Assembly (NCBI RefSeq): GCF_029643425.1
Contig: NZ_CP119106.1
Location: forward strand, 124,001 to 188,000
Length of the DNA: 64,000 nucleotides
Direction: 5' to 3'
Origin: Isoptericola sp. AK164
Lineage (GTDB): Bacteria; Actinomycetota; Actinomycetes; Actinomycetales; Cellulomonadaceae
Below, one piece after another: positions 14,199 through 60,634 of this stretch. A program made the translations under genes and the position numbers. How positions within the stretch are numbered: the first letter of the stretch is position 1; each line of letters begins with the position of its first letter. The notes beneath the pieces were generated by a model that saw nothing but the letters and a program-made list of their open reading frames with translations, did not search any database and was not told the DNA's origin.

Positions 14199-14251
14199 CC
14201 CAGGCAAGCCCAGCCCAGCCCAGCCCCTCCCCGCCCCGGCGCTCCCCGGCG

Positions 14252-14311
14252 CTGTGGGCAGGAAATCTGCACCCTCACACCCCTGAGGACCTGCAGATTT
14301 CCTGCCCACAG
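14252..14311. repeat. Long perfect inverted repeat (20-bp arms)
   Basis: Arms 14252-14271 (CTGTGGGCAGGAAATCTGCA) and 14292-14311 are exact reverse complements separated by 20 bp. It lies in the 212-bp gap between the GH51 and alditol oxidase genes, after a CCCAG-rich low-complexity run. No T-tract follows, so it may be a bidirectional structural terminator or an inserted palindromic element. The rest of the gap shows nothing I recognise. Confidence 0.85.
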
Positions 14312-14410
14312 GGCGGGGCGGGGGTGGCCGGTCCGCCTGGCACCTCGTACGGCGGTCGGACTGGCGGACTTCCTGCGCGCGCCCTGACCAGCCATGGCAC
14401 CCTGGGGCCC

Positions 14411-15776: not shown

Positions 15777-17351
15777 GTGAGTGCACAACACAAGTCCGCC
15801 CCGCGGGAGCAGTTCACCGGGCAGGTGGGGTTCATCCTGTCGGCGATCGGCTCGGCCGTGGGTCTCGGCAACATCTGGCGGTTCCCCGGCGTGGCCTACG
15901 AGAACGGTGGCGGCGCGTTCCTCGTGCCCTACCTCATCGCGCTGCTGACGGCGGGCATCCCGATCCTCTTCCTCGACTACGCGATCGGTCACCGGTTCCG
16001 CGGTGGCGCCCCCCAGGCGTTCCGCCGGATCAAGGGCTGGCTGGAGACCCTGGGCTGGTTCCAGGTGATGATCTGCATCGTCATCGCCGTCTACTACGCC
16101 GCGGTCGTGGCGTGGGCGGCGAGCTTCTTCGTCTACTCCTTCGGCCTCGACTGGGGCGACGACCCCGCCACGTTCTTCATCGGGGAGCACCTGCAGCTCG
16201 CCGACGCAGGGGGGGCCGACCCGTGGCTGACCTTCGACTTCGTGGCCGCCGTGCTGATCCCGCTGGCACTCGTCTGGCTGGTCGTCGTCGCGGTGCTCGC
16301 CGCGGGCGTGGTCAAGGGGGTCCAGCGCGCCAACATCGTCTTCATCCCGCTGCTGCTCGTCTCGTTCGGCGCCCTGGTGGTCCGGGCTCTGTTCCTCGAC
16401 GGCGCCGGCGACGGCCTGAACGCGCTGTTCACCCCGCAGTGGGACGCGCTGGCCGACCCTGAGGTGTGGATCGCCGCCTACGGGCAGATCTTCTTCTCGC
16501 TGTCCGTGGCGTTCGGCATCATGATCACCTACGCCTCGTACCGGCGCCGTCGGTCGAACATGACGGGCCCCGGCCTGGTGGTGGCGTTCTCCAACTCCGG
16601 CTTCGAGATGCTGGCCGGCCTCGGCGTGTTCTCCGCTCTCGGTTTCCTCGCCCTGGAGCAGGGAGTCGCACTGGAGGAACTGAACCTCACTGGAGTCACC
16701 CTCGCGTTCATCACGTTCCCGGCGATCGTCTCCGAGATGCCGGCCGGCGCCCTGTTCGGTGCGCTCTTCTTCGGCTCGCTGGTGATGGCCGGGTTCACGT
16801 CGCTGGTCTCGATCCTCCAGGTCGTCTCCGCGGCCCTGCAGGAGAAGTTCGCCCTGTCCCGGACCGCTGCCGTGCTGTGGCTCGGCGGTGTCCTGGGCGT
16901 GGTCTCGGTGGTCGGCTTCAGCACCACGACGGGACTCTTCCTGCTCGACACCGTCGACCACTGGGTCAACAACATGGGCATCGTGGCCTCGGCGATCCTC
17001 ATGTGCGTCTTCGTCGTGTGGGTCTACCGCCGGGCGCCCGAGCTGCGCTACCACCTCAACGCCGTCTCGACGACGCAGCTCGGCGCGTGGTGGTACGCCT
17101 GCGTCGGCGTCATCATCCCCGTGATGCTCACGATCATGCTGGTCCAGACGGTCCGGGTGCGCATCAGTGAGCCCTACGAGGGATACGATGAGACGTACCT
17201 GCTCTATGCAGGCTGGGGCACCGTGGCGCTGCTGGTGGTCGGGTCGCTCGCCTTCTGGGCGTTCCGTTGGCGCGGACCGGGTCTGTACCGCGCCTGGCCG
17301 CCGTACCCGCCGGTCGAGGACCCCGCCGTGCGGAAGGAGGCGTCGCGATGA
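15777..17351 (+). CDS. metP: Sodium-dependent NSS amino-acid transporter (MetP-like)
   Basis: A 524-residue neurotransmitter:sodium symporter family protein. The diagnostic first membrane segment (FILSAIGSAVGLGNIWRFPG) carries the unwound Na+/substrate site, followed by NGGGAFLVPYL. About 12 hydrophobic helices can be traced to the C-terminal AFRWRGPGLYRAWPPYPP. The next gene encodes a tiny membrane subunit, an arrangement I know from MetP/MetS of Corynebacterium glutamicum, a Na+-coupled methionine/alanine importer; the substrate is inferred from that. GTG 15777 has GGAAGG 10 bp upstream. Stop overlaps the metS start by 4 bp. Confidence 0.87.
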   Translation: MSAQHKSAPREQFTGQVGFILSAIGSAVGLGNIWRFPGVAYENGGGAFLVPYLIALLTAGIPILFLDYAIGHRFRGGAPQAFRRIKGWLETLGWFQVMICIVIAVYYAAVVAWAASFFVYSFGLDWGDDPATFFIGEHLQLADAGGADPWLTFDFVAAVLIPLALVWLVVVAVLAAGVVKGVQRANIVFIPLLLVSFGALVVRALFLDGAGDGLNALFTPQWDALADPEVWIAAYGQIFFSLSVAFGIMITYASYRRRRSNMTGPGLVVAFSNSGFEMLAGLGVFSALGFLALEQGVALEELNLTGVTLAFITFPAIVSEMPAGALFGALFFGSLVMAGFTSLVSILQVVSAALQEKFALSRTAAVLWLGGVLGVVSVVGFSTTTGLFLLDTVDHWVNNMGIVASAILMCVFVVWVYRRAPELRYHLNAVSTTQLGAWWYACVGVIIPVMLTIMLVQTVRVRISEPYEGYDETYLLYAGWGTVALLVVGSLAFWAFRWRGPGLYRAWPPYPPVEDPAVRKEASR

Positions 17352-17515
17352 GCACCACCGCGATCATCATGATGGCGGTCGCCCTGATCGTCGTCTGGGG
17401 CGGCCTGATCCTCGCGATCGTGGCCCTGCGCAGCCGGCCGGAGCGGACGGAGTTCCCGCCCGGCGGCGAGGACGACCACCGCGAGGACATGGGGATCATC
17501 GAGCACGACACGTAG
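17348..17515 (+). CDS. metS: MetS-like small subunit of NSS transporter
   Basis: A 55-residue protein with one membrane helix (TTAIIMMAVALIVVWGGLILAI is the hydrophobic core, given here in part) and a hydrophilic acidic tail ending HREDMGIIEHDT. Small MetS subunits accompany MetP-type transporters and are needed for transport in C. glutamicum. The ATG overlaps the metP stop (ATGA), so translation is coupled. Function is inferred from position, size and topology. Confidence 0.8.
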   Translation: MSTTAIIMMAVALIVVWGGLILAIVALRSRPERTEFPPGGEDDHREDMGIIEHDT

Positions 17516-17884
17516 GTCTCGCTCCGGTTCCGAGGTCCGTTCGAGGTCCGGGTCCTTCCGTGGCGCCGCCGCGCTCACGGGCGCTGCGCGCCCTGCGCTT
17601 CCCGTCTGACGACGGCGCCACGGAAGGACCCGGACCTTTGTCGTCCGTCCCCGGCCTGCTTGTCGCGGCTGCCGGGCCGGGGCGTGTCTCGCTCGACGCG
17701 GTGCGGCGACGGCCGGGCTTTCGAGACGGCCACGCGGGGCGGGAGGTGACGGGGGTGCGTGATCGATGTCATGGGGCTCGGGTTTGGGAACGCTATGTAT
17801 AGGTATGCATACTGCCGCATAGACGCTCCGAGGCCCTGACCGGGCGCGGGCGTCGTCCCCCTCCACGCGATCCCTGGAGCCGTC
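17516..17884. other. 369-bp intergenic region
   Basis: Between metS and the amino-acid binding-protein gene. The first half holds a 25-bp perfect inverted repeat (17544-17637). At 17792-17813 there is an AT-rich stretch with the 10-bp palindrome GTATGCATAC (17803-17812), the likely promoter/operator region for the downstream ABC operon. No convincing coding frame was found. Confidence 0.6.
17544..17637. repeat. Long perfect inverted repeat (25-bp arms)
   Basis: Left arm 17544-17568 begins AGGTCCGGGTCCTTCCGTGG; right arm 17613-17637 is its exact reverse complement; a 44-bp centre separates them. It is the most likely terminator of metPS, although the wide loop and lack of a T-tract are unusual. 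Confidence 0.85.
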
Positions 17885-45793: not shown

Positions 45794-46816
45794 GTGTCTG
45801 GAAACGCCACCACCCGGTTCGGCAACGTCGCGCTGCTGTCCGTGACGCGCCGACTGCCGTCACGGGTCACGTCGTCGTCCGAGATCCAGCAGCGGCTCGC
45901 TCCCGCGCTGAAGCGGTTGCGGCTGCCGCGCAACCTGCTCGAACGGGTCGCGGGCGTCGAGGAGAGGCGCAACTGGGGACCCGATGAGGACGCCGACGCG
46001 GCCACGATCGCGGCCGGCCTGGACGCCCTCGACCGGGCCGGCGTCGAGCCGGACGAGGTCGGGCTGCTCATCAACACCTCGGTGACACGCAAGCACCTCG
46101 AGCCCTCGGTCGCCGTCGGCCTGCACCACGGGCTGGGGCTGCCGAGCTCGGCCGTGAACTTCGACGTCGCCAACGCCTGCCTCGGGTTCATCAACGGCAT
46201 GACGCTGGCCGCCGGCATGATCGAGTCCGGGCAGATCCGCTACGCGGTGATCGTCAACGGCGAGGACGCCGACGACATCCAGCACCACACCGTCGACCGG
46301 TTGCTCTCCCAGGACGTCGGCCGCGAGGGCTTCATGGAGGAGTTCGCGTCGCTGACCCTGGGCTCCGGGTCCGCGGCCGCCGTGCTCGGCCCGGCCGACG
46401 CCCACCCCGAGGGCCACCGTGTGCTCGGCGGCGTGACGCGCGCCGGCACCCAGCACCACCGGTTGTGCGTCGGCAGCCCGGAGGGCATGTTCACCGACGC
46501 CGAGGGGCTGCTCGAGGGTGGCCTGGAGCTGGTCGTGGACGCCTGGAAGGACGCCATCGCCGAGTGGGACTGGGAGGCGATGGACCGCTACGTCACCCAC
46601 CAGGTCTCCCGGGTGCACACCAACGCGATCGTCGAGGCCGTCGGCCTGGACCGCGCCAAGGTCCCCACGACGTACCCGACGCTCGGCAACGTCGGCCCGG
46701 CGTCGGTGCCCATCACCCTCGTCCAGGAGGCCGAGACCCTCAGCCGCGGCGACCGTGTGCTGCTCATGGGCGTCGGCTCCGGCATCAACACCGCCATGCT
46801 GGAGCTGGCCTGGTGA
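45794..46816 (+). CDS. oleA: OleA, head-to-head acyl-CoA condensing thiolase
   Basis: A 340-residue thiolase-superfamily enzyme that joins two fatty acyl-CoAs head to head into a 2-alkyl-3-ketoacid, the first step of long-chain olefin synthesis. The catalytic Cys-His-Asn are C129 (FDVANACLGFINGM), H275 (SRVHTNAIVEA) and N299 (TYPTLGNVGPAS). GTG 45794 was chosen because the protein then begins SGNATTRFGN, as I recall for Micrococcus OleA, with GGAG 5 bp upstream; in-frame starts at 45746 and 45779 remain possible. Coupled by a 4-bp overlap to oleBC. Confidence 0.92.
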   Translation: MSGNATTRFGNVALLSVTRRLPSRVTSSSEIQQRLAPALKRLRLPRNLLERVAGVEERRNWGPDEDADAATIAAGLDALDRAGVEPDEVGLLINTSVTRKHLEPSVAVGLHHGLGLPSSAVNFDVANACLGFINGMTLAAGMIESGQIRYAVIVNGEDADDIQHHTVDRLLSQDVGREGFMEEFASLTLGSGSAAAVLGPADAHPEGHRVLGGVTRAGTQHHRLCVGSPEGMFTDAEGLLEGGLELVVDAWKDAIAEWDWEAMDRYVTHQVSRVHTNAIVEAVGLDRAKVPTTYPTLGNVGPASVPITLVQEAETLSRGDRVLLMGVGSGINTAMLELAW

Positions 46817-49548
46817 CGCTGCGCCCCGCGAGCACCGTCCCGCCGGACCTGCCCGGCCTCGAGTCCCGGTTCAGCCACGTCCGTGGCGACTGGCACTACC
46901 TGGACAACGGCGCCGAGCTGTCGGCGCACGGCATCGAGCCGGTCGGCACCGTGCTGGCCGTGCACGGCAACCCCACGTGGTCCTACCTGTGGCGGGACCT
47001 GATCGAGACACTCACGGAGCGGGCGATCGAGACCTCCGCCGCCGTCGGTGAGTACCCCGACGGCGTCCGGGGCGCCTGGCGCGTCGTCGCCGTCGACCAG
47101 CTCGAGATGGGGCTGTCCGCCCGCACGGGACGACGCCGCACCCTGGCCGATCGCGTCGCCGACCTGTCCGCCTTCACCGCCGACCTCGGCCTGGACGGGC
47201 CGGTCGTCACGCTCGGGCACGACTGGGGCGGCGTCGTCTCGCTCGGCTGGGCCGTCGACCACCCCGACCGGCTCGCCGGGGTCGCGCTGCTCAACACCGC
47301 CGTGCACCAGCCCGACGACGTCGCGATCCCCGCCCCGCTGCGCCTCGCCCTGGCCCGGGGCGTCCACCGCTGGGGCACGCGCACCACGCGCGCCTTCCTG
47401 GAGACCACGCTGGGCCTCGCGCGCCCGCGGCTGGACCGCGACGTCGCCGACGCCTACCGGCTGCCCTACCGCTCCGCCGACGACCGCGACGGCATCGAGC
47501 AGTTCGTCGCCGACATCCCCGCCGCGCCGGACCACGTCAGCCGCCCCGAGCTGGACCGCATCGCCGACGGCGTGGCCGCGCTCGACGTCCCGGCGCTGCT
47601 GCTCTGGGGAGCCCACGACCCGGTGTTCTCCGACCGCTATCTCGACGACCTGCTGCGTCGGCTCCCGCACGCCGGGGTCCACCGGTTCGAGGACGCCGGG
47701 CACCTGATCGCCGAGGACGTCGACTACGCCGGGCCGGTGCTGAGCTGGTTGGGCTCGGCGGCGGCGGTTCCCGAGGGCTCCGGCGGAGACGCGTTCACGG
47801 GCCCTGGGGGTCCCTCCACTTCGGGGACGACGTCCCCGCCGGAGCCCTCGGGAACCACCGCGTCGTCGACGGCACCGGACAGCACGGAGTTCCGGCCGAT
47901 CTGGGCCGGGCTCGACGAGCGCGCCGCCGACCCCGTGTCGCGCACCGACCAGGCCGTCCTGGACCTCACCGCCACCGGCGCCGGACGCTTCGTGAGCTGG
48001 GGAGCGCTGGACCGGCAGGTGCGGCGCCTCGCCGCCGGCCTGCACGAGATCGGGGTGCGCCGCGGCGACCGGGTGTCGCTGCTGGTCCGGCCCGGGCCCA
48101 CGCTGACCGCGCTGGTGTACGCCTGCCTGCGGATCGGTGCGGTCGTCGTCGTGGCCGACGCCGGCCTGGGCCTGCGCGGGCTGACCCGCGCGCAGCGTGG
48201 GGCGTGGCCGCAGTACCTGATCGGGCAGACGACGGCGCTCGCGGCCGCCCGCGCGGCCGGCTGGCCTGGCGTGCGGATCGCCGTCGACCCTCTCGACCCG
48301 GTGCGACGCCGGGCGCTGGGCGTGGACCACGAGCTGATCGACGTCGCGCGCGCCGGCGAGGGCCTCGAGCTGCCGCCGGAACCCGGGCCGGACGACGACG
48401 CGGCCGTGCTGTTCACCTCCGGGTCGACGGGTCCGGCCAAGGGCGTGCTGTACACGCACCGCCGGTTGTCCGCGTTGCGCGACGTCCTGGCCGAGCACTT
48501 CGCGGTCGGCCCGGACACCGGGCTGGTCACCGGGTTCGCGCCGTTCGCGCTGCTCGGTCCGGCGCTCGGTACCCGCTCGGTGACGCCGGACATGGACGTC
48601 TCCGCGCCGCGCACGCTGACGGCTCGTGCGGTGGCCGACGCCGTGAAGGCCACCGACGCGCGCATGGTGTTCCTGTCCCCGGCGGCGATCCTGCACGTCG
48701 TCGACACGGCGGACCGGCTCACCGCCGTCGACCGGGAGGCGCTGGGGCGCGTCGAGACGTTCCTGTCCACGGGTGCGCCGATCGGCGCCGCGCTGCTCGA
48801 GGCCGCGCAGTCGCTCATGCCGGCGGCCGAGGCGCACACCCCGTACGGGATGACCGAGTGCTTGCTGGTCACCGACATCACGCTGGCTGGCATCCGCGAC
48901 GCCGCGGGCGCGCCCGACACCGGCGTCTGCGTGGGCCGGCCGATCGTCGACCCGGCCGACGGCGGCGTCCTGATCAGCGCGCTGGACGACGACGGCGCGG
49001 CCACCGGGCCGCCGTCGGCCGACCCCGGGGCGCTGGGCGAGGTGCTGGTCAGCGCGCCGCACCTCAAGGAGCGGTACGACCGGCGGTGGCTCACCGACGT
49101 CGCGGCCGAGCGGGACACCCCGCCGGGGCACTGGCACCGCACGGGCGACGTCGGCCACCTGGACGACGCCGGGCGGCTGTGGATCGAGGGGCGGCTCGCC
49201 CACGTGCTGACGACGTCGGCGGGTCCGCTGGCCCCGGTCGGTCCGGAGCAGTCGATCGAGCGGGTCGACGGCGTGCGCCGCGCCGCCGTCGTCGGTGTCG
49301 GACCGGCCGGGGTCCAGCAGGCCGTGGCCGTCGTCGAGCCGGAGCGCGCGAGCGGTCGGGTGCGGCCGGGGCTGGCGCCCGAGGCTCTCGACGCCGCGGT
49401 GCGGGAGTCCTCGTCCGTGCCGCCGGCCGCGGTGCTCGTGGTGCCGGAGATGCCGACCGACGTCCGCCACAACTCCAAGATCGACCGGGCCCGGCTCGCG
49501 GACTGGGCGTCCGGCGTCCTGGCGGGCGGCCGGGTGACCGCGCCATGA
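46813..49548 (+). CDS. oleBC: OleBC fusion: beta-lactone decarboxylase plus beta-lactone synthetase
   Basis: A 911-residue fusion. Residues 1-315 are OleB, an alpha/beta hydrolase of haloalkane-dehalogenase type: HGNPTWSYLWRD, nucleophile D137 (TLGHDWGG) and H297 (DAGHLIAED); it decarboxylates the beta-lactone to a cis-olefin. Residues about 360-911 are OleC, an AMP-forming ligase-like beta-lactone synthetase: P-loop FTSGSTGPAKG (K543), PYGMTECL and GDVGHLDDAGRLWIEGR. The 40-residue linker is Gly/Ser/Thr/Pro-rich and mostly encoded by a 21-bp inverted repeat. Fusion keeps the reactive beta-lactone between adjacent active sites; OleBC fusions are known in actinobacteria. Overlaps oleA and oleD by 4 bp each. 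Confidence 0.94.
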   Translation: MTLRPASTVPPDLPGLESRFSHVRGDWHYLDNGAELSAHGIEPVGTVLAVHGNPTWSYLWRDLIETLTERAIETSAAVGEYPDGVRGAWRVVAVDQLEMGLSARTGRRRTLADRVADLSAFTADLGLDGPVVTLGHDWGGVVSLGWAVDHPDRLAGVALLNTAVHQPDDVAIPAPLRLALARGVHRWGTRTTRAFLETTLGLARPRLDRDVADAYRLPYRSADDRDGIEQFVADIPAAPDHVSRPELDRIADGVAALDVPALLLWGAHDPVFSDRYLDDLLRRLPHAGVHRFEDAGHLIAEDVDYAGPVLSWLGSAAAVPEGSGGDAFTGPGGPSTSGTTSPPEPSGTTASSTAPDSTEFRPIWAGLDERAADPVSRTDQAVLDLTATGAGRFVSWGALDRQVRRLAAGLHEIGVRRGDRVSLLVRPGPTLTALVYACLRIGAVVVVADAGLGLRGLTRAQRGAWPQYLIGQTTALAAARAAGWPGVRIAVDPLDPVRRRALGVDHELIDVARAGEGLELPPEPGPDDDAAVLFTSGSTGPAKGVLYTHRRLSALRDVLAEHFAVGPDTGLVTGFAPFALLGPALGTRSVTPDMDVSAPRTLTARAVADAVKATDARMVFLSPAAILHVVDTADRLTAVDREALGRVETFLSTGAPIGAALLEAAQSLMPAAEAHTPYGMTECLLVTDITLAGIRDAAGAPDTGVCVGRPIVDPADGGVLISALDDDGAATGPPSADPGALGEVLVSAPHLKERYDRRWLTDVAAERDTPPGHWHRTGDVGHLDDAGRLWIEGRLAHVLTTSAGPLAPVGPEQSIERVDGVRRAAVVGVGPAGVQQAVAVVEPERASGRVRPGLAPEALDAAVRESSSVPPAAVLVVPEMPTDVRHNSKIDRARLADWASGVLAGGRVTAP
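47766..47856. repeat. Perfect 21-bp inverted repeat inside the oleB-oleC linker
   Basis: Left arm 47766-47786 begins GGTTCCCGAGGGCTCCGGCG; right arm 47836-47856 is its exact reverse complement; 49 bp lie between, including GGGGACG-A-CGTCCCC (47823-47837). It encodes residues 318-348, nearly the whole linker. Confidence 0.93.
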
Positions 49549-50546
49549 CCATGCTGGTCACGGGCGCGTCCGGGATGCTCGGCACGGGGGTGGCGCGCGC
49601 GTTGGTCGCGCGCGGCGAGTCCGTGCGCACCCTGCAGCGCCGTCCCTCCGGGGTGCCGGGCGTCGAGGACGTCCCCGGGTCGCTGACCGACCCGGCCGCG
49701 GTGGCCGACGCCGTCGACGGGGCCGACGCCGTCGTGCACCTCGCCGCGAAGGTGTCGCTGGCCGGGGACCCGGACGAGTTCACCGCGGTGAACGTCGACG
49801 GCACGCGCACCCTGCTGGACGCCGCCGAGCGGGCCGGGGTGCGGCGGTTCGTGCAGGTGTCCTCGCCGTCGGTGGCGCACGCCGGGACGTCACTGGTGGG
49901 CGTCGGGGCGGGACCGGCCGACCCCGAGCGGGCACGCGGCGAGTACGCCCGGACCAAGGCCGTCTCCGAGCTGCTGGCCCTGGCGCGGGACGGCGCGGGG
50001 TCCGACGGCGGGCTGCGGGTCGTGGCCGTGCGGCCGCACATCGTGTGGGGCCCGGGGGACACCCAGCTCGTCGAGCGGGTCGTCGATCGCGCGTCGTCGG
50101 GGCGCCTGCCGCTGCTCGGGCACGGCGCCGCGCTCATCGACACGACGTTCCTGGACAACGCGGCCGACGGGATCGTCGCCGCCCTGGACCGGCTGGACGA
50201 CACCCCCGAGGCCGTCCACGGCCGGGCGTACGTGATCACCAACGGGGAGCCGCGCCCGGTGGCCGACCTGCTGGCCGGCATCTGTCGCGCCGCCGGGGTG
50301 GAACCGCCCCGGTGGCGGGTGCCTGCCGGCCTGGCGAGGGTCGCGGGTGGCGCCGTCGAGGCCGTGTGGCGCGTGCGCCCCGGTACCGACGAGCCGCCGA
50401 TGACGCGGTTCCTGGCCGAGCAGCTCTCCACGGCGCACTGGTTCGACCAGCGTGAGACCTGGGCCGACCTGCGGTGGCGTCCCGCCGTCAGCATCGACGA
50501 GGGGCTCCGGCGGCTGGCCGCCTACTACGGCGGTACGGCGCCCTGA
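49545..50546 (+). CDS. oleD: OleD, 2-alkyl-3-oxoalkanoate reductase
   Basis: A 333-residue extended short-chain dehydrogenase that reduces the OleA product to the 2-alkyl-3-hydroxyacid used by OleC. The NADP-binding TGASGMLGTGVARAL starts at residue 6; the catalytic YARTK gives Y134 and K138; VRPHIVWGPGD and TTFLDNAADGIVAALD are typical of the 3-beta-HSD-like group. ATG 49545 overlaps the oleBC stop. The gene order oleA-oleBC-oleD encodes the complete pathway from acyl-CoA to long-chain internal olefin. No terminator-like hairpin is seen directly after it. Confidence 0.93.
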   Translation: MTMLVTGASGMLGTGVARALVARGESVRTLQRRPSGVPGVEDVPGSLTDPAAVADAVDGADAVVHLAAKVSLAGDPDEFTAVNVDGTRTLLDAAERAGVRRFVQVSSPSVAHAGTSLVGVGAGPADPERARGEYARTKAVSELLALARDGAGSDGGLRVVAVRPHIVWGPGDTQLVERVVDRASSGRLPLLGHGAALIDTTFLDNAADGIVAALDRLDDTPEAVHGRAYVITNGEPRPVADLLAGICRAAGVEPPRWRVPAGLARVAGGAVEAVWRVRPGTDEPPMTRFLAEQLSTAHWFDQRETWADLRWRPAVSIDEGLRRLAAYYGGTAP

Positions 50547-53361: not shown

Positions 53362-53487
53362 CGGACCTCCGGTGGCGTGAGGCTTCATGGTGCCCCGCCG
53401 TCCGGCTGAGGGACAGCCGGTTTGCCGTTCCGGCAACCGTGCGACGATCGCCCGAGATCCGTTCCCGTGACCGAGAGGCAGGACATC

Positions 53488-54696
53488 GTGCTGCGCAGCA
53501 CCGACCGCATCGAGACCACCCACGCCGGCTCCCTGCCGCGCACCGCCGAGCTGCTCGCCGCCAACGCGGCCCGCGAGAGCGGGGACGCCGACGGCGACTT
53601 CGGCCGGTTGCTGCGCGACGCCGTCGCCGACGTCGTGCGCCGCCAGCAGGAGGCCGGGATCTCCGTGGTCGGCGACGGCGAGTACGGCAAGTCGATGTCC
53701 TCGCCGATGGACTTCGGCGCCTGGTGGTCGTACTCGTTCCAGCGCACCGGCGGGCTCGAGCTCGACACCGACGCGCAGTGGGTGCTGGCGGACGTGCAGT
53801 CCGCGCCCGGCGACGTGCGGCTGACCGGGTTCGGCAACCGCCGCGACCAGGCGCGGTTCCGCGAGGCGTACACCGACCCGACGTCGGGTATCTTCCACGG
53901 CGAGGGGCCGGGGCAGTTCCCGAAGGTCACCGGGCCGCTGACGTACACCGGGCAGGCCGCCGTCGCGCAGGACGCCGCGAACCTGCGGGCCGCTGCCGAC
54001 GCCGCCGGGGTGACCGACGCGTTCGTCACCTCGATCGCGCCCGGGTCGGCGACGCGGATCCACAACGAGCACTACGCGACGCACGAGGAGTACGCCTACG
54101 CGTGGGCCGACGTCCTGCGCGAGGAGTACCTCGCGATCGTCGACGCCGGGCTCATCGTGCAGATCGACGACCCGGGGCTGGCCGAGTCCTGGGACCAGGT
54201 CACGCCGGAGCCGACCGTCACCGACTACCTGGACTTCTCGCGGATCCACGTCGAGGCGCTCAACCACGCGCTGCGCGGCATCCCGCCGGAGAAGGTGCGG
54301 TACCACCTGTGCTGGGGATCGTGGCACGGGCCGCACTCCACGGACCTGCCGATGCGCGACATCGTCGGGCTCATGCTCGACATCGACGCCGGGGCGTACT
54401 CCTTCGAGGCGGCGAACGTGCGGCACGAGCACGAGTACCGCGTCTGGGATGACATCGAGCTGCCCGAGGGCAAGCTGATCCTGCCCGGCGTGGTCTCGCA
54501 CGCGACCAACGTGCTGGAGCACCCCGAGCTCGTCGCCGAGCGCATCGAGCGGTTCGCGCGGCGGGTCGGCCGGGAGAACGTGCTGGCCTCGACCGACTGC
54601 GGGCTCGGTGGGCGCGTGCACCCGCAGATCGCGTGGGCCAAGCTCGAGTCCCTGGCCGCCGGCGCGCGGATCGCCTCGGAGCGGCTCTGGGGCTGA
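53488..54696 (+). CDS. MetE C-terminal-like (cobalamin-independent methionine synthase family) protein
   Basis: A 402-residue protein with the zinc-dependent methyltransferase barrel of the MetE C-terminal domain, standing alone as in archaeal-type or YxjG/YxjH-like proteins. Start region TTHAGSLPR; GDGEYGKSM near 65; YHLCWGSWHG and STDCGLGGRVHPQIAWAKLE supply His, Cys and Cys candidate zinc ligands. It lacks the MetE N-terminal folate half, so it may use another methyl donor. GTG 53488 has GAGAGG 9 bp upstream; GTG 53467 is an alternative. Confidence 0.85.
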   Translation: MLRSTDRIETTHAGSLPRTAELLAANAARESGDADGDFGRLLRDAVADVVRRQQEAGISVVGDGEYGKSMSSPMDFGAWWSYSFQRTGGLELDTDAQWVLADVQSAPGDVRLTGFGNRRDQARFREAYTDPTSGIFHGEGPGQFPKVTGPLTYTGQAAVAQDAANLRAAADAAGVTDAFVTSIAPGSATRIHNEHYATHEEYAYAWADVLREEYLAIVDAGLIVQIDDPGLAESWDQVTPEPTVTDYLDFSRIHVEALNHALRGIPPEKVRYHLCWGSWHGPHSTDLPMRDIVGLMLDIDAGAYSFEAANVRHEHEYRVWDDIELPEGKLILPGVVSHATNVLEHPELVAERIERFARRVGRENVLASTDCGLGGRVHPQIAWAKLESLAAGARIASERLWG

Positions 54697-54707: not shown

Positions 54708-54766
54708 TCGAGCGTCTCTGTTCCTCAGGAATCAGGTCGCGATTCCTGAGGAACAGAGACGCTCGA
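54708..54766. repeat. Long perfect inverted repeat (26-bp arms, 7-bp loop)
   Basis: Arms 54708-54733 (begins TCGAGCGTCTCTGTTCCTCA) and 54741-54766 pair exactly around AGGTCGC. It starts 12 bp after the MetE-like stop and is the best candidate for its terminator, though no T-tract follows. Confidence 0.88.
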
Positions 54767-60127: not shown

Positions 60128-60343
60128 TCCGGTGTCGGGTAGACATCTGCCCAGGTCAACGAGTGATCGGCGACACGTCCTCCGCGTGCCGATCCGGCAA
60201 CCGCGCTCCTCGCGCACGGTGCCTCAGGAGGAAGACCGGCCTCGCGCCGACCGGCGCGGGGAAGAGCGGGGTCGCTGACGGCCTCCGGGCTCGTTCGCGC
60301 GTCCGGGTGGCTGTCGGCCGGCTCCCCGGACGAAGGAGCAGAG

Positions 60344-60634
60344 ATGTTTCCCGAGCTCGACGAGCAGGTCCTCGCCCGGCTGCCATGGGAGATCCACGAG
60401 CAGCACAGGAACTCGTACCACCTGGCGATGTTGAGCTGTGCGGTGCGCGACCAGGCCGGGCTCGGGCTGCGGTGGGTGGACCGGCACCGCCTGGCGTCGT
60501 GGCGTGGGAGTCTGCGGGAGGTCAACGCGGTCGTCGTCTACGACTGGAAGACGCCCGACGGCTTCTACGTCGTCCCCAGGCTTGAGGGCGACGGCGACGT
60601 CACGCGCCCGCCGATGGTGGGGGAGGACCCGTGA
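60344..60634 (+). CDS. Small protein of unknown function
   Basis: A 96-residue soluble protein beginning MFPELDEQVLARLPWEIHEQ with many charged and aromatic residues (HRNSYHLAMLSCAVRDQAGL, VNAVVVYDWKTPDGFYVVPR). Codon use is like its neighbours. A GAAGGAG ribosome site precedes the ATG, which supports it being real. No family recognised. It is convergent with the PepSY lipoprotein gene, 26 bp apart. The 216-bp gap before it, beyond the hairpin, shows nothing clear. Confidence 0.6.
   Translation: MFPELDEQVLARLPWEIHEQHRNSYHLAMLSCAVRDQAGLGLRWVDRHRLASWRGSLREVNAVVVYDWKTPDGFYVVPRLEGDGDVTRPPMVGEDP

Follow-up and report, generated by a model that had tools for sequence, protein, structure and literature searches.

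The window, that is, the whole 64-kb stretch of DNA that was analysed, carries oleBC, a gene whose product, judged by its translation and by model matches, fuses OleB, of the hydrolase fold, to OleC, which resembles beta-lactone synthetases. Haloalkane-dehalogenase models match within residues 12-303 and OleC-type models match residues 394-901, all with scores below the curated cut-offs, and the neighbouring genes at 45794-46816 and 49545-50546 are presumably oleA and oleD. The linker between the two matched stretches had been singled out in a first-pass annotation for an inverted repeat with exact arms, and both the symmetry and its position are borne out: 47766-47786 (GGTTCCCGAGGGCTCCGGCGG) matches the reverse complement of 47836-47856 exactly, across a gap of 49 nt, and both arms lie between the OleB-like and the OleC-like parts. 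These arms extend to 31 nt with two mismatches (94% complementary), leaving a loop of 39 nt. The features are listed below, together with a second copy in the window.

46813..49548, + strand: oleBC, fused OleB and OleC, 911 amino acids
47761..47861, + strand: whole palindromic element in oleBC, 101 nt, in frame, residues 317-350 (AAVPEGSGGDAFTGPGGPSTSGTTSPPEPSGTTA)
47761..47791, + strand: 5' arm, 31 nt, with its perfect 21-bp part at 47766-47786
47792..47830, + strand: conserved core, 39 nt, a dispersed repeat with column conservation and covariation
47831..47861, + strand: 3' arm, 31 nt, complementary to the 5' arm
17544..17637, + strand: second copy, intergenic, after the stop of gene 17348-17515; arms of 28 nt, core at 17572-17609

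The core of the oleBC element consists, in order, of CGTTCAC, an inner stem, TCCACTTCGGG, variable bases and GA. The element coincides with a covariance-model match (G000:C1:171769-171854, E 1e-16; G-numbers denote genomes, G000 being the window's own, and L-numbers denote loci). It supplies 34 residues of the linker, which is thus made partly by the palindrome, as had been proposed.

Chance symmetry and other hairpins of the window

That the symmetry arose by chance or through codon bias in a GC-rich linker of Gly, Ser and Pro is an explanation whose probability we consider practically negligible. GC-rich linkers without the element do give hairpins of 8-16 bp (one mismatch; 19 linkers), and one of 18 bp in G009, but a perfect 21 bp never appeared in 200 codon shuffles of oleBC, the longest being 16, and the core recurs throughout the genome. 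Base shuffling of the window likewise failed to produce 21 bp in any of 20 trials (longest 17), and the RNA fold of the hairpin has a z-score of -7.45 against 200 dinucleotide shuffles. Of 80 inverted pairs that the window contains at distances up to 150 bp, the oleBC pair ranks first; the longest perfect inverted repeat of the window is another hairpin, of 26 bp, at 54708-54766. The earlier view that the palindrome is no accident is therefore upheld, since shuffles never attain its length, and so is its assignment to repeats that are mainly intergenic. The further remark that similar repeats lie between genes elsewhere in the window holds most exactly for the copy at 17544-17637, which is of the same family; the other long hairpins have other loops. 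A copy in G013 (L076) follows the same gene end as this second copy and has other arms, and the arms of L126 are nearly the same as those of the second copy.

Several features of the window stand apart from this family. The hairpin at 54708-54766, with a 7-nt loop, follows gene 53467-54696. A hairpin of L094 has its TCGAGCGTCTCTG too, and the two may belong to another repeat family. The stem sequence CGCTGTGGG is common to hairpins at 14249-14314 of the window, L105 (6429), L122 (2993) and L129 (1012), and may represent a third palindromic family. A SAM-IV riboswitch (Rfam RF00634, 68.3 bits) occupies 60154-60272, upstream of a predicted gene at 60344.

Distribution and anatomy of the repeat family

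When 121 bp around the oleBC hairpin were compared with their own genome (3.58 Mb, one contig), 15 matches were obtained at E <= 0.001, two of them the element itself on both strands, two covering the right-hand part only and 11 mainly the loop. The covariance model finds 30 places in this genome at E <= 1: 26 at E <= 5.3e-11, three weaker ones at 1.1e-6 to 0.0016 and one near chance (0.24). A weak match in HrpA was confirmed through orthologues. Model matches occur in 23 of 58 genomes, this one included, namely in all 18 of the genus Isoptericola, and in five of 18 from other genera of the family, while the 22 genomes that represent other families of the order have none. In a larger sample, filtered more strictly, 37 of 200 genomes and seven of 25 genera of the family gave matches, and the 36 stretches with the strict core pattern among named genomes all belong to Isoptericola. 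At L047 (G000:C1:1291958-1292020) there is a long hairpin with a 16-nt loop and a weak model match, perhaps a decaying copy.

Gene context was read with a simple codon-usage gene finder for 87 distinct copies, 52 of which lie between convergent genes and none between divergent genes. The 26 copies from the window's genome (25 of the 26 strong matches and the HrpA copy) comprise 17 convergent, seven codirectional and two intragenic cases; for the 61 copies of relatives the figures are 35, 15 and 10, with one more at a contig edge. The arms of intergenic copies begin shortly after stop codons. Where the flanking genes are codirectional (n = 22), the core runs in the gene sense in 16 cases and against the genes in six, so its orientation may be non-neutral. 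An origin from plasmids or phages was rejected, since the element has no plasmid or phage match and the strict core pattern has no exact match in IMG/VR. A known RNA family was likewise rejected, since in Rfam 15 the element has no match at the gathering score (the window has only SAM-IV, elsewhere, and the 10 weak matches in eight loci are all below it).

The element measures about 100 nt, its arms of about 28-31 nt enclosing a structured, conserved core of 37-42 nt. The consensus of the core, followed by most of the 87 copies, is CGYTCAC, then an inner stem of about 6 bp whose changes compensate each other, TSCRCTTCSSG, a few variable bases and GA. Covariation among 54 cores of 38 nt (36 distinct) is strongest between positions 10 and 20 (inner stem), 24 and 32 (C-G exchanged for G-C) and 3 and 26 (T-A exchanged for C-G); the 3-26 link would connect the small hairpin loop with the 5' strand in the manner of a pseudoknot. 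There are weaker links as well, e.g. 26-31. A pairing of columns 28-29 with 64-65 (alignment A1) was dropped by eye, as copies with a longer 3' loop show that side to be variable.

The arms are paired much more strictly than they are conserved. In an alignment of 13 copies, 94.0% of 403 cells are paired against 68.5% in shuffles, and the covariation score is 0.676 against 0.167 for shuffled and at most 0.134 for slid partners. Over 84 copies, pairing is 0.89-1.0 at stem positions 1-28 and then falls to 0.71, 0.64, 0.54, 0.35 and 0.21 at positions 29-33, a drop that lies outside the positions (1-22) by which these copies were selected. Of the stem positions of 85 copies 96.7% pair, and 41 stems are perfect. 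Stem length has a median of 31 (quartiles 30-33; 74 non-coding copies), and little sequence information is left beyond the inner 9 bp, where it is high; together these indicate that the length of the stem is held and its outer sequence is not. At positions 29-45 there are no conserved bases on either side (at most 0.33 bits).

Copies within proteins and the history of individual sites

OleBC is present in all 18 genomes of the genus and, in a wider draw, was matched in 13 of 61 genomes of the family. All 27 linkers read (18 from Isoptericola, nine from genomes of six other genera of the family) join fused proteins, and the element occurs in seven of the 18 and in none of the nine. It stands in the gene sense and in the same frame (DAFTGP.GPS.SG) in G000, G004, G010, G012, G013 and G014, and antisense in G008. 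The first-pass annotation had suggested that a hairpin once lying between separate oleB and oleC genes was read through and so created the fusion. Although the element is usually intergenic and does provide those 34 residues, we consider such an origin very improbable: 20 of the 27 fused linkers are free of it, including all nine from outside the genus, and the same element is found in HrpA, GcvP and a HemD-like protein. Since fused linkers without it are common, the fusion most likely predates the element. In OleBC the element lengthens the linker and probably has no catalytic role.

On a tree of five proteins with midpoint root, the seven element-bearing OleBC do not group together: clade A (support 1.0) has five among its eight genomes, the group of G014 and G004 two among six, and the third clade none among four. 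G002, the sister of G000, has no element in this gene, and by these sequences gains, losses or both have taken place at the site. The similar arms of G004, G012 and G014 suggest that these copies go back to one old insertion. Chance symmetry had been expected to reveal itself through linkers of near relatives that align base for base without any palindrome; what the element-bearing linkers keep is largely complementary, though differing, arms. The OleBC linker may accept hairpin elements repeatedly. That of G009 (L084, about 1850-1930) contains a different hairpin, of 18 bp with a 38-nt loop; GGTGCCGAACA is found both in its stem and in an intergenic hairpin of L058 (1387).

In HrpA the element lies in frame in eight of the 18 genomes of the genus by the core pattern, exactly those of clade A, and also in G023, of another genus; G009, G010 and G013 have it at a second place of this protein. 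A linker of GcvP carries it in five of 18 (G004, G005, G006, G011 and G014), none of which belongs to clade A or to the third clade, as well as in G031, of another genus; a HemD-like protein carries it in frame in G010. The names are from NCBIfam, with GcvP above its cut-off, HrpA at 611 bits on cut loci and so below 722.75, and the weak HemD name below cut-off (E 1.4e-14). Copies in the four proteins use both orientations and several frames and encode different peptides, which indicates that the nucleotide sequence is conserved and not the peptide.

Intergenic sites have varied histories as well. After crp the core is present in 13 of 18 species (degenerate in G004), always in one orientation, with arms that are mostly unlike but alike among G015, G016 and G001; G001 has kept the stem and has no core. 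At the same place G005 and G009 have other hairpins, and no hairpin of at least 10 bp is present in G006 and G011. The core occurs downstream of citrate synthase in four of 18 and after purU in two of 18. Empty-site comparisons yielded no clean junction at which a target-site duplication could be read: at citrate synthase G013 and G010 align, but a 20-bp repeat array surrounding the element blurs the boundary, and at crp G004, G006 and G011 align poorly.

Arrays and hairpins of other kinds accompany some of these sites. In G008 and G012, core copies are bordered by arrays of 20-bp period, each unit made of CGAGGTAGT and 11 variable bases, with up to 11.6 copies; the arrays stand on both sides of the core in L073, L105, L108, L114, L116, L137, L138 and L139, oppositely oriented on the two sides, and on one side in L052. 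Downstream of citrate synthase there is another 20-bp array (GAGTCAGCGCA), which surrounds the element in G013 and occurs without it in G010. After the same gene, L155 (G001), L156 (G016), L158 (G007) and L161 (G015) have core-less, terminator-like hairpins of 19-34 bp with at most one mismatch and loops of 4-18 nt.

Related copies reveal how arms change. The OleBC arms of G004 and G012 differ at five of 24 stem positions, and all five have changed on both arms; G004 and G014 show three compensated differences, one one-sided and one unpaired, and G010 and G013 four one-sided and none compensated. In 83 pairs of copies with similar arms, which are non-independent and not all orthologous, 324 differences are compensated, 118 one-sided and 29 two-sided but unpaired. 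In the 20 closest pairs (at most three differing positions) one-sided differences outnumber compensated ones (22 against 15), so that new changes would often be one-sided and be compensated or corrected later; correction is not immediate. Stem mismatches are more often of the G.U kind when read on the strand opposite the core (35 against 12, binomial p 0.001), which hints that selection acts on an RNA.

The core can also turn round. In HrpA the sister species G010 and G013 share the inner 18 nt of the 5' arm exactly while the core is inverted, which, at the level of sequence comparison, is direct evidence of inversion in place. Core orientation differs between sisters also in OleBC (G008 and G012) and after purU (G000 and G002); there the arms differ too, and separate insertions are possible.

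Known systems, host function and mobility

In behaviour the element comes closest to the Rickettsia palindromic elements (RPEs), which reportedly go back to Ogata and colleagues in 2000 and 2002. As far as the partial sources at hand describe them, RPEs are short palindromic repeats of many copies, both intergenic and in frame in unrelated genes, where the proteins tolerate them; the comparison is one of descriptions and not of sequences. They enter reading frames (PMC10969869, in part) and their repeat identity is lost with time (PMC6649704, in part). Unlike RPEs, the Isoptericola element conserves only its core and inner 9 bp, its outer arms varying yet staying complementary; it has no single conserved peptide, and its host is an actinobacterium. 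The RPEs of R. conorii have CGTC at one end, according to the excerpted text of PMC3733652; CGTC was not found at the outer ends of Isoptericola copies; it does occur on the non-core strand at the junction of inner stem and core, an internal position.

Other repeats share fewer traits. REPs and REPINs with their RAYTs are also repeated hairpins near gene ends with possible effects on transcript ends, and REPs form GTAG- and CGTC-tagged super-families, the CGTC repeats being assigned to five named phyla, Actinobacteria not among them in the available part of the source (PMC3733652). They measure 20-40 bp against about 100 nt here, where the outer stem is not conserved and has no end tag. A REP/RAYT system was rejected, there being no conserved tagged short stem and no Y1 transposase (PF01797, the one family searched) in any of the 18 genomes of the genus, with five of 14 control genomes positive. 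MITEs, too, are small non-autonomous repeats able to add in-frame protein segments, and in-frame fusions of intragenic ones are called 'not unusual' in the accessible text of PMC10969869; MITEs are defined by conserved terminal inverted repeats, whereas the outer arms here differ between most copies. The mitochondria of nematomorphs contain perfect long inverted repeats within reading frames, with gains and losses between species, and template switching has been proposed for their concerted arms (PMC6649704, in part). There, unlike here, both arms encode conserved amino acids, and a shared core or dispersed family is undescribed in the part of PMC6649704 at hand. Among the matches listed in a search of open-licence PMC papers, no paper dealt with the Isoptericola element.

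The most serious competitor of a mobile palindrome is a host-functional structured RNA or bidirectional terminator family, whose stem would end or protect convergent transcripts, whose core would bind a protein or form a tertiary motif, and whose coding copies would be stray duplicates; we hold it to be unlikely, though clearly worth weighing. Intrinsic (Rho-independent) terminators are GC-rich hairpins directly after stops, often between convergent genes, and the intergenic copies, unlike the coding ones, do place a stable hairpin behind genes. A host function is best supported by the constant stem length, the preference for gene ends (52 of 87 copies convergent, none divergent, arms starting shortly after stops) and the orientation bias in codirectional spacers (16 of 22 in gene sense). 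To these may be added the covarying core columns, sites common to several species, the one-strand G.U bias and a T content of 30% over the first 8 nt beyond the stem on the core strand, compared with 13% on the opposite one (74 copies). This enrichment is confined to one strand, however, and the stem of about 31 bp, the conserved 38-nt tip and the intragenic copies set the element apart from intrinsic terminators, as may the lack of a clear U-run on both sides. Copies within the reading frames of four proteins must be transcribed through, which argues against termination. Moreover, G001 has a stem without core after crp, the orientation of the core in HrpA differs between sister species, ordinary core-less hairpins occupy the same spacers in other species, and the G013 copy near citrate synthase comes after a separate ordinary hairpin.

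The oleBC hairpin is thus one in-frame member of a repetitive palindromic family found in Isoptericola and some relatives, and we regard it as probable that the element is selfish, i.e. mobile. The family is dispersed, its arms pair and covary, copies stand in frame, species differ in presence and absence, and in HrpA the core has been inverted in place. Mobility is suggested by one core in unrelated genes and spacers, by the lineage-limited presence in HrpA and GcvP and by in-frame use of both orientations. Such a DNA hairpin would persist where some 100 nt of hairpin are tolerated, just after stops and in interdomain linkers. Against this reading, neither a mobilising enzyme, within the Y1 search, nor a transposition event was seen, and many sites are old (crp in 13 of 18, HrpA in all eight of one clade), which fits host function too; the 16 to 6 orientation bias and the RNA-level selection hinted at by G.U opposite the core also weigh on that side.

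Because arms change together even inside reading frames, their complementarity may be kept at least partly by templated correction between arms, through strand switching in a DNA hairpin, a process proposed for nematomorph mitochondria in the part of PMC6649704 at hand. Templated correction alone does not predict a fixed stem length, and near-identical copies differ mostly on one arm. A bolder scheme, which we find rather doubtful, is that the element carries the core only and builds its arms by inverted copying of about 28-31 nt of host sequence across the core, which may flip later.

Coding palindromic elements are, by the partial sources cited, best known from Rickettsia; here an actinobacterial family occurs in four unrelated proteins and can be traced across 18 related species, and interdomain linkers are made from repeated DNA. 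Arms that are free in sequence, paired and fixed in length offer a case for telling selection on structure from templated correction. If arms are indeed copied from the host, this would explain their fixed length and free sequence, their joint change and both core orientations, and the element would be a natural machine for adding protein linkers.
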